Positions 15,021-42,397 of a stretch of DNA of 43,080 nucleotides are shown piece after piece. Positions within the stretch are counted from its first letter, which is position 1; each line of letters begins with the position of its first letter. Source of the stretch: Bacteroidales bacterium (GTDB lineage: Bacteria > Bacteroidota > Bacteroidia > Bacteroidales > Cfx3-03); the NCBI GenBank assembly GCA_023251485.1, contig JAHEYR010000005.1, positions 1 through 43,080 on the forward strand. The letters are read 5' to 3'. A program made the position numbers and the translations under genes. The notes under the pieces are model-generated. The model did no database searches and was not told the origin of the DNA. It was given only the letters and a program-made list of their open reading frames with translations.

Positions 15021-15300
15021 GTCTCCTGTTTTTTGGAATAAAAAGGAATCAGTCGAAAAAGTTGGGGAGCGTTCGTTTTATCTTTCTAATCTTAGAGAGA
15101 ATTCCAATAGCGTAAAATCATTATCTGCAACTTATTAATGGATATAAAAAATCAACGCTCGCTTATCTTTATTGAGTATCTTTGTGTTTGACTTTTAAAA
15201 CCAGATCTATGGTTTTATCCTGTTTTTAAAACGATCTTTTTTAAAACAGCAGGACGCTCAATACGTCTGAAATTCCAACCTAATCATTTTTCGATTCTCT

Positions 15301-15512
15301 CCATAAACAGATGATAAATCGTTTCTATATCACTCATAAAAGGAAGGGTCTGTCCATAGTTTGTCCATACTTAGTCCATAGTTTCTCCATACTTTGTCCA
15401 TACTTATAAGATATGGAGTAACTATGGACAAACCTTCGACAAGGTGTCGACAAAGTTTTGACAACCCCATCTGTTTAGGGGAGACGTATCATCCTTTTAT
15501 CATCTGCATAAG
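15301..15512. repeat. Long imperfect palindrome with core of 5 + 5 oppositely oriented 11-bp units (array 15351-15463)
   Basis: Left units TGTCCATAGTT/TGTCCATACTT/AGTCCATAGTT/TCTCCATACTT/TGTCCATACTT; hinge ATA; right units AGATATGGAGT/AACTATGGACA/AACCTTCGACA/AGGTGTCGACA/AAGTTTTGACA; equidistant arms CAGATGATAAA (15308-15318) and TTTATCATCTG (15496-15506). Confidence 0.9.
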
Positions 15513-15567
15513 ATAGGTAATGAAGTTTTTTGAATTAAAATTTATCAGGGGAAGAGGCTATCGTGCT

Positions 15568-15597
15568 CGTCAATAAAGCAGCTCTAATTTATTGACG
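15568..15597. repeat. Perfect 10-bp stem hairpin (cgtcaataaa / tttattgacg)
   Basis: Arms 15568-15577 and 15588-15597, 10-nt loop. Confidence 0.8.
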
Positions 15598-15621
15598 TTT
15601 ATCTAGGTTTTTATCAAAAAA

Positions 15622-15657
15622 GAAATAATCAGATTTCAAGAAAAAATAGATTATTTC
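15622..15657. repeat. Perfect 9-bp stem hairpin (gaaataatc / gattatttc)
   Basis: Arms 15622-15630 and 15649-15657. Confidence 0.65.
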
Positions 15658-15692
15658 AGAAATTAGTCTTATCAAAGGTATAACTTTTTTGC

Positions 15693-15782
15693 ATCAGTCA
15701 GAATCATTTTATAGGATCAATTTATTTTAGGATGATTCGTGCTCCACAACTATTCTGACTGATCCATAAAGTTATGGAGCAC
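15693..15782. repeat. Interlocked inverted repeats with A-B-A'-B' order
   Basis: A atcagtcagaat 15693-15704 / A' attctgactgat 15752-15763 (perfect); B gtgctccacaac 15739-15750 / B' gttatggagcac 15771-15782 (11/12). Confidence 0.75.
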
Positions 15783-19970: not shown

Positions 19971-21266
19971 TTAGAATTTTTCTTGAATATCAAAGACCAC
20001 TTCAAAAAGATGAAGGTTATTCTCCCATTTATAAATTAGTTTCCAGTTATAGTGATTAACAATTTTTTTAACAATAGACAATCCTAACCCACTACCCTGC
20101 GAAGAAGGATTTACTTTTGAGAATCGACTATATATTTTTGACTCATCCAGGGCTTCTCCCCTACTGGTATTCGACAATATCAGTCTACTACCAATCATTT
20201 TCAAATCGATACACCCACTAGATTCTGTATGTCGAACAGCATTTAATAGTAAATTACTAACTAAAACTTCAATAAGAGAACTGTTGGCCGATATCGTAAG
20301 TTGGCTATCAATCAATGAAATAAATTGAATCTCTTTTGCTTCTGCCTGGAGAGAAAAGAAATCTATTTGCCTCTTAAGCACCTCGGGTACAGACAATAAC
20401 TCATTTTCTGTATAATGGTTATGATCAAGTTTCGAAAGAAGTAATAGATTTTTATTCAACCGGCTCAACCGGGTCACCGATTGATTTAAAAATGAGATGA
20501 TATCAGCTTGTGCTATCGTAATATTACCTGTTTGTAATAGCGTGTCTAACTTTGCCTGGAAGACAGCTAACGGTGTTTGAAGTTCGTGAGCTGCATTTTC
20601 AATAAACTCTTGTTGACTATTATAGATGGCTATATTGCGCTCAATCAACTTATTGACAGATTGGTTCAATCTGGAGAACTCTTCAATATTTGTTTCAAGC
20701 CATTGTGGTTGAATATTCTTATCGATTTCAAAATGCTCAATCTGAGCAAGAGAATCATAAAAAGGCTTCCACAATTTAATAGATAAATAACGTGTAATAA
20801 AATATAAGCCGGCAAATAACAACAGAATAATTCCTGTAAATACCCACACGATGCTTCTTACCAGATCTTCAGATTCAATCATATTGACACGAACCAATAA
20901 AGAATAGGGTTTCTTTTCAATACGAATAGGAGTCATCAACACACGATAAGGTTGATCTTCATGTTCTAACGTATCTAAAATCATTTGATTAAAAATAGAG
21001 TCGTGCCTAATCTGTGGTTGAGGATCAATTATTCTTATATTCCAATTCATTGAATTCCAAACCTTAATGTCAGATTCCTTAATATGAGGCAACGAATACT
21101 TAAAGAATGCTCGTTTACTTATTTTCAAAGTATGCCGGGTATCACCTGAATACATCCACAGCGTCGTAAAGTATGACATCGGTGCACTAATTATTAATAC
21201 CAAAAGTGCAAACACGATATAATATCGTAGCGTTTTATCTAATAATTTATTTGTCATCCTTGCCAT
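19971..21266 (-). CDS. Sensor histidine kinase
   Basis: 431 aa; two TMs, ENAAHELQTPLAVFQAKLD H-box, NLLLNAVRH N-box, GSGLGLSIVKKIV. Confidence 0.93.
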   Translation of the reverse strand: MARMTNKLLDKTLRYYIVFALLVLIISAPMSYFTTLWMYSGDTRHTLKISKRAFFKYSLPHIKESDIKVWNSMNWNIRIIDPQPQIRHDSIFNQMILDTLEHEDQPYRVLMTPIRIEKKPYSLLVRVNMIESEDLVRSIVWVFTGIILLLFAGLYFITRYLSIKLWKPFYDSLAQIEHFEIDKNIQPQWLETNIEEFSRLNQSVNKLIERNIAIYNSQQEFIENAAHELQTPLAVFQAKLDTLLQTGNITIAQADIISFLNQSVTRLSRLNKNLLLLSKLDHNHYTENELLSVPEVLKRQIDFFSLQAEAKEIQFISLIDSQLTISANSSLIEVLVSNLLLNAVRHTESSGCIDLKMIGSRLILSNTSRGEALDESKIYSRFSKVNPSSQGSGLGLSIVKKIVNHYNWKLIYKWENNLHLFEVVFDIQEKF

Positions 21267-41887: not shown

Positions 41888-41991
41888 ATTATTTTGGAAG
41901 ATAAATCCATGAGCCCGGTATAAAAAAGACAAAATAGTTTTTAAACTAACCCCCTCAATAGAACCTCGAAAGAACCTCTTGACACAGTTAA

Positions 41992-42221
41992 GACAATACC
42001 TAAGGATAAAGGGTAGAATAGCCCTGGATGAAGAGTATATAAAGTGTATCCGTCTCGCACGTGTTTCGCACGTGTCTCGCACATGTCTCGCACCTGTCTC
42101 GCTATATAGAGCGAGACTCGTGCGAAACTGGTCCGAAACACGTGCGACACTGGTGCGATAAATAGACAAGTCATCGACTAATAATCTACCGGTATTCTAC
42201 CTGTTATTCCTAGGTCATATC
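41992..42221. repeat. Long imperfect palindrome with core of oppositely oriented 11-bp units (array 42053-42160)
   Basis: Left TCTCGCACGTG/TTTCGCACGTG/TCTCGCACATG/TCTCGCACCTG/TCTCGCT, loop ATATAG, right AGCGAGA/CTCGTGCGAAA/CTGGTCCGAAA/CACGTGCGACA/CTGGTGCGATA; outer arms 41998-42022 and 42191-42215, 20/25 Watson-Crick pairs about the same centre. Confidence 0.92.
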
Positions 42222-42397
42222 AGATTTATCACAGAATTTTTAAAGCATTGTTCCCTTTTGAAATTGGGATATACTTTTAAGGGTAGAATGAAAATTGGGG
42301 TGAAGGTTCAAACAGATATAATGATGAGTTGATCCGGATAAAAGTGCTTCAAAAACCGGATAAAACCTTGAACCAGATTCTAAAATGCAAACATAAA

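Follow-up and report, generated by a model that had tools for sequence, protein, structure and literature searches.

Two 11-bp arrays and the elements that contain them

The window, i.e. the whole stretch of 43,080 nucleotides from a Bacteroidales contig that was analysed here, carries two arrays of 11-bp units (locus 1 and locus 2), flanked by genes of the sulfatase, Porin_10, AhpC/TSA and fucosidase families. The stretch also holds a gene for a PorY-family sensor histidine kinase of type IX secretion (T9SS), at 19971-21266 on the minus strand; together with Porin_10, this kinase points to Bacteroidota. A preliminary description, made from the letters alone, had reported arrays of period 11 with a central inversion and outer inverted arms, with 5+5 units in the one at 15351-15463 and about 4.6+4.6 in the one at about 42052-42160. 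Re-reading of the sequence confirmed both arrays, together with the counts given for their units (all 18 have TC at positions 3-4, and 16 of the 18 begin with T at position 1). The CATA core ascribed to locus 1 is found in seven of the ten units, the three outer right-arm units having AAAA, GACA and GAAG at these positions.

Since TRF alone is too strict for degenerate arrays, these were sought with a self-match scan. Self-match at lag 11 is raised along the element at both loci, which is mostly not the case at lags 9, 10, 12 and 13, and the period-11 zone has the same extent as the interspersed repeat described below. The period, inversion and outer arms of the described design are real, and the design is larger than had been proposed: lag-11 self-similarity extends over ~15,283-15,490 at locus 1 and ~41,933-42,250 at locus 2, and the latter contains a dyad of 109+109 nt that likewise reaches beyond the array (Table 1). 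We refer to the two elements as family A (locus 1) and family B (locus 2).

Table 1. Coordinates of the repeat features in the window
Feature	Position	Strand	Basis
Family A element (locus 1), 11-bp-periodic, dyad-symmetric interspersed repeat	15283..15515	+	copy searches, lag-11 self-match, dyad scoring
A left array, 5 units TGTCCATA[GC]TT	15351..15405	+	sequence read
A right array, ~5 units; inner two as left units, outer three retaining just the TTGTC part	15412..15464	-	
Longer repeat of ~720 bp carrying the A element; short ORFs only	15046..15765	.	
Family B element (locus 2), 11-bp-periodic, dyad-symmetric interspersed repeat	41945..42250	+	12 own-genome copies, lag-11 zone
B gapless dyad, 109+109 nt, 71% complementary	41998..42215	.	
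B left array, units TCTCGCAC[GCA]TG	42052..42106	+	
B right array, inverted units	42107..42160	-	
B left outer arm, GTAT boxes in phase with the inner 11-bp array	41998..42051	+	
B right outer arm	42161..42215	-	

The dyad symmetry is not restricted to the window copies. Over ±100 bp, the arms are 53-71% complementary in 21 A copies and 56-72% complementary in the B copies of the home genome (G000, see below); in another genome of the genus (G002, see below), B copies reach 71-88% over 50-100 bp. By comparison, the best dyads in random stretches of relatives had a mean of 0.38 and a maximum of 0.45. The ends of B form part of the dyad, and the resemblance between copies tapers off with no single crisp end. 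The 11-bp phase of the left outer arm is plainer in the G002 copies (GTATATNAAGG units), whose outer arms, read by eye, consist of 11-bp repeats of GTATAT boxes in phase with the inner boxes.

Copies, dispersal and change within the genus

The home genome (G000) is a MAG that is 82% complete and divided into 322 contigs, so that copy counts obtained from pattern and BLAST searches are lower bounds. In it, family A has at least 8 copies and family B at least 12, several of them at contig ends. Many loci, and not the two window loci only, therefore match in this genome, and both window loci are members of multi-copy dispersed families. Indeed, the flanks beyond the element are unrelated for most copies of either family, which argues for dispersed elements rather than a duplicated region; exceptions are one pair of loci, L034 and L039, which have more flank in common, and four A copies with a longer common repeat (see below). 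A search for four consecutive T.TC units gave 48 matches on the two strands of this genome, compared to one for the same pattern read backwards, showing that the arrays lie far above chance.

At the family level, the search returned just two further genomes. Both come from the same genus; G001 has about 15-17 A copies, and G002 has diverged B copies of changed unit on ~19 contigs. Three A copies occupy orthologous sites in G000 and G001. The spacer between the AhpC/TSA and fucosidase genes harbours a B element in G000 and an A element in G001, between the same genes and at different places within the spacer. On the G001 chromosome we also noted a third mirror-image 11-bp family, with unit CTGTACCCGTT, at ~15 or more loci (L154, L164; e.g. 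G001:C1 1204115-1204212). It has an inverted centre as well, but the complementarity of the two copies inspected is no higher than 0.51 and 0.55 over ±100 bp.

Half of the A copies (4/8) share a longer form of ~720 bp at 88-90% identity, two of these being cut by contig ends. This form has TIR-like ends of ~27 bp, GGA(A)TCAGTC[AG]GAA.AGTTG.GGAGC (GGATCAGTC TIR), both of which are seen in the complete copies L053 and L056. By-eye reading of the ends of these two copies revealed no convincing target-site duplication, and the ~720-bp form contains no ORF longer than ~52 codons. Both A and B are multi-copy, short, non-coding and dispersed, as are miniature inverted-repeat transposable elements (MITEs); no transposase, clean target-site duplication or within-species empty site was found for either.

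Differences in unit number between copies are mostly of 11 or 22 bp (arrays of L035, L037, L055 and L056), and one copy, L036, has a +11-bp indel in the less repetitive outer arm. The centre of A shows one-base length differences between copies. The inner right-arm unit of A matches either the first or the second left unit, depending on the copy. In the B copies of G002, end modules are found on either arm, i.e. they have been swapped between arms. Finally, the B unit differs between the two genomes at position 6, where 46/53 units have C in G000 but 86/108 have T in G002, in both arms; position 2 of the right arm has become C in 52/52 units of G002. Since unit changes between species are common to both arms, the earlier proposal of homogenisation within elements and divergence between them holds, in that units are made alike within one lineage and differ from those of other lineages.

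Period-11 arrays beyond the genus

The preliminary description had regarded the two loci as one element family with a common T.TC unit grammar. We rejected this grammar as a sign of kinship. In the best of 22 registers, the A and B units are identical at 4-5 of 11 positions, below the median of 6 for random 11-mers, 35% of which hold T.TC in some rotation or strand. Moreover, a scan of 248 genomes of the order revealed T.TC arrays in many families, each genome having units of its own, with an excess of T.TC in ~16 genomes and an excess of the reversed pattern in ~17 (our own reading of the tables), and the reversed-pattern control arrays turned out to be real arrays too. With A/B units below the random median and control arrays as frequent as T.TC arrays, there is no common grammar. 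What A and B have in common is architecture (the 11-bp step, the dyad and the size), not unit sequence, and they are two families.

The preference for a period of 11 is not peculiar to these families. In 1.44 Mb of sequence from the order (83 stretches chosen regardless of arrays, largely from array-positive genomes), non-coding loci numbered 22 at period 7, 6 at 8, 0 at 9, 3 at 10, 11 at 11, 0 at 12, 1 at 13, 3 at 14 and 4 at 22. There is thus a sharp peak at period 11, with 11 loci compared to 0-3 at periods 9, 10, 12 and 13. A scan of all GTDB species for six T.TC units, in which Bacteroidota were assigned by record title, gave 39 Bacteroidota among the 80 loci listed; 32 of these 39 lie outside a long open frame, and the non-Bacteroidota among the loci listed include many perfect or coding repeats. 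An inverted partner is absent from all 39 Bacteroidota loci among those listed, which indicates that the mirror design belongs to this genus and a few others and does not characterise the class.

Degenerate intergenic period-11 arrays with other units therefore occur across Bacteroidota, and they seem to be undescribed. The comparison with Rfam called for in the preliminary description gave no match in the window at gathering score, literature searches on 11-bp tandem repeats in Bacteroidetes returned nothing relevant, and a class of this kind is not mentioned in the part of PMC4679880 that gives an account of long simple sequence repeats. If the class holds, Bacteroidota carry a pervasive and apparently undescribed repeat type whose step is one DNA turn. 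Such repeats would break assemblies, many copies sitting at contig ends, and would provide lineage-specific markers as well as a natural system in which to study how inverted arrays evolve in concert in bacteria; the reason why periods 11 and 7 exceed neighbouring periods would become directly testable.

Several other features of these arrays were noted. Period-7 intergenic arrays are commoner than period-11 arrays in the survey (22 and 11 non-coding loci, respectively; L199, L201, L222, L231, L403-L405 and L411), and some of them are also inverted, e.g. at about 11401-11510 in L403. In places, period-11 arrays of distinct unit sequence occur in twos or threes within a few hundred bases (L226, 17298-17984; L396, 15862-16358; L223, 1316-1603; L268). 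GC-rich short palindromes such as CGCTCGCTGCGCTCGCG interrupt period-11 arrays in L270, L273 (G049) and L134 (G147). At ~1501 of L127 (G102), an 11-bp array lies inside an apparent open frame, where it would encode an 11-residue protein repeat, and a similar unit is present in G167.

Origin and possible role of the elements

Dispersal, periodicity, dyad symmetry, indels in 11-bp steps and concerted unit change being direct observations, our best reading is that the elements are interspersed repeats that resemble MITEs, are built from minisatellites and represent a variant of long simple sequence repeats. Both window loci would be copies of non-coding interspersed dyad elements of ~210-310 bp, made of 11-bp units, that spread in a MITE-like manner, undergo slippage and template switching as they evolve, and are part of a wide Bacteroidota period-11 class; we assign this reading a probability of roughly 0.6. 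Such an element consists of 11-bp tandem units along most of its length, those of the second half being inverted, which produces the dyad. Judging from the patterns described above, slipped-strand mispairing and arm-to-arm template switching would insert, remove or replace complete 11-bp units, and would be expected to yield 11- and 22-bp indels, unit changes in both arms, swapped end modules and the varying match of the inner right-arm unit of A. Edits of whole units would keep the phase and homogenise both arms while lineages drift to different units.

Of the known systems, long simple sequence repeats with units of 5-11 nt (LSSR5-11; Mrazek et al. 2007, following the account in PMC4679880), cyanobacterial and TAACTGA heptamers, the BrickBuilt MITE and REPs are the nearest, and none has the 11-bp mirror design. 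According to the same account, LSSR5-11 are tandem non-coding units in the same size range, with slippage-like gain and loss and many loci per genome in some lineages; the window arrays, too, are arrays of 5-11-nt units longer than chance expects. They differ in having a degenerate unit and in sitting within conserved dyad elements of ~210-310 bp whose period-11 zone extends beyond the array. Heptamer repeats, as treated there, resemble them as short-unit intergenic tandem arrays (the cyanobacterial STRRs) of strain-specific distribution, TAACTGA being found in Beggiatoaceae, Cyanobacteria and five Bacteroidetes; however, the unit is 7 nt long and of one fixed sequence (TAACTGA), mostly direct, and there is no 220-bp dyad element. 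BrickBuilt of Porphyromonas gingivalis, also in the Bacteroidales, is an intergenic interspersed element with a minisatellite inside, present in 19 copies per genome and devoid of a transposase (PMC4596501), but it combines 23-nt direct repeats with a leader, a tail and IS-like TIRs, whereas A and B are made of 11-nt units in inverted halves. Finally, REP, BIME and ERIC-type elements are dispersed intergenic imperfect palindromes as well (PMC3733652 for REPs); REPs measure 20-40 bp, bear GTAG or CGTC tags and lack an internal 11-bp array, and A and B are set apart from this group by size.

The arrays could instead be purely neutral long simple sequence repeats, devoid of function and of dedicated mobility, periods 7 and 11 being replication slip lengths. 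Some large genomes do contain LSSRs with 5-11-nt units, and heptamers have been proposed to arise by slippage, as reported in PMC4679880; the arrays are, moreover, intergenic, degenerate and lineage-specific. However, slippage alone does not account for dispersed copies whose flanks are unrelated, for outer arms matched on a 4-bp scale, or for the ±100-bp dyad seen in all inspected families of the genus. The neighbouring periods 9, 10, 12 and 13 are nearly absent as well, and we consider this explanation unlikely.

The relation between the two arms bears on whether the elements act as DNA or as RNA. Arm complementarity, which is 0.70 at register 0, is still 0.64 and 0.53 at shifts of -11 and +11, respectively, and 0.49 at -22/+22, but falls to 0.14-0.19 at ±1, ±10 and ±12, showing that the phase is kept and not one register. 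A unit of 11 bp corresponds to one DNA turn and also to one turn of the A form. The strict 11-bp phase without a fixed pairing register suggests that the function of A and B, if any, is exerted at the DNA level, by an array of boxes that binds protein on one face rather than by one exact RNA hairpin, and the elements may thus be one-turn-phased protein-binding arrays. Note that period-7 arrays are common and that seven is not a whole helical turn, so that an account based on the helix leaves some arrays unexplained.

A stronger version holds that the arrays are a centromere-like, nucleoid-organising or operator scaffold in which each family has one protein co-evolving with its unit, like ParR on parC of plasmid R1. 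There, two sets of five 11-bp repeats act through cooperative ParR binding (PMC4949242), and the one-turn phase, the 5+5 units and the several copies per chromosome of our elements would suit such a role. The resemblance is an analogy, not membership: parC is a plasmid locus beside parMR with repeats that are all direct (PMC4949242), whereas A and B are chromosomal, multi-copy and inverted, with no known partner, and work like parC at most. ParR/ParM partner genes are not adjacent to either window locus, no binding protein or partner gene was identified, neighbours are not fixed, and the unit sequence varies within one genus, with several families in one genome. We therefore regard a dedicated scaffold as rather improbable. 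Equally speculative is the extension of this idea to all Bacteroidota, in which phase-locked 11-bp arrays (5+5 mirror elements in this genus) might be bound by fast-diverging proteins that co-evolve with lineage units and have a role in organising or marking the chromosome or in driving the spread of the elements.

It is very doubtful that the working unit is the long hairpin of a transcribed dyad, i.e. a structured non-coding RNA (bidirectional terminator, RNase III substrate or regulatory RNA), since, despite gapless arms, some two-sided changes and low folding energies (z-scores of -4.5 for locus 1 and -8.2 for locus 2), any inverted array folds well, pairing is nearly as good one unit off register, Rfam gave no match, gene orientation shows no clear preference, among the loci listed, period-11 arrays elsewhere mostly have direct units alone and cannot form such a hairpin, and pairing is not kept by compensation. 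On this last point, comparison of the B consensus of G000 and G002 revealed 47 unchanged pairs, 7 changed on both sides in a compensatory manner, and 28 changed on one side with loss of pairing in one species, which disfavours a single conserved RNA fold even though the elements fold well. When the G002 B copies are folded as RNA, G-U mismatches outnumber A-C mismatches on one strand, which fits an RNA; A and the G000 B copies do not show this.

Two further ideas were dropped. Overlapping start-stop minigenes, with a step of four codons minus 1 nt, fit a few units by eye (ATGA, TTGA) and not the others. A positional role beside particular genes was set aside for want of a clear orientation bias: flanking genes are convergent at 15 arrays, divergent at 14 and tandem at 43, compared to 28, 48 and 155 in the background, which is near background with a mild convergent excess.
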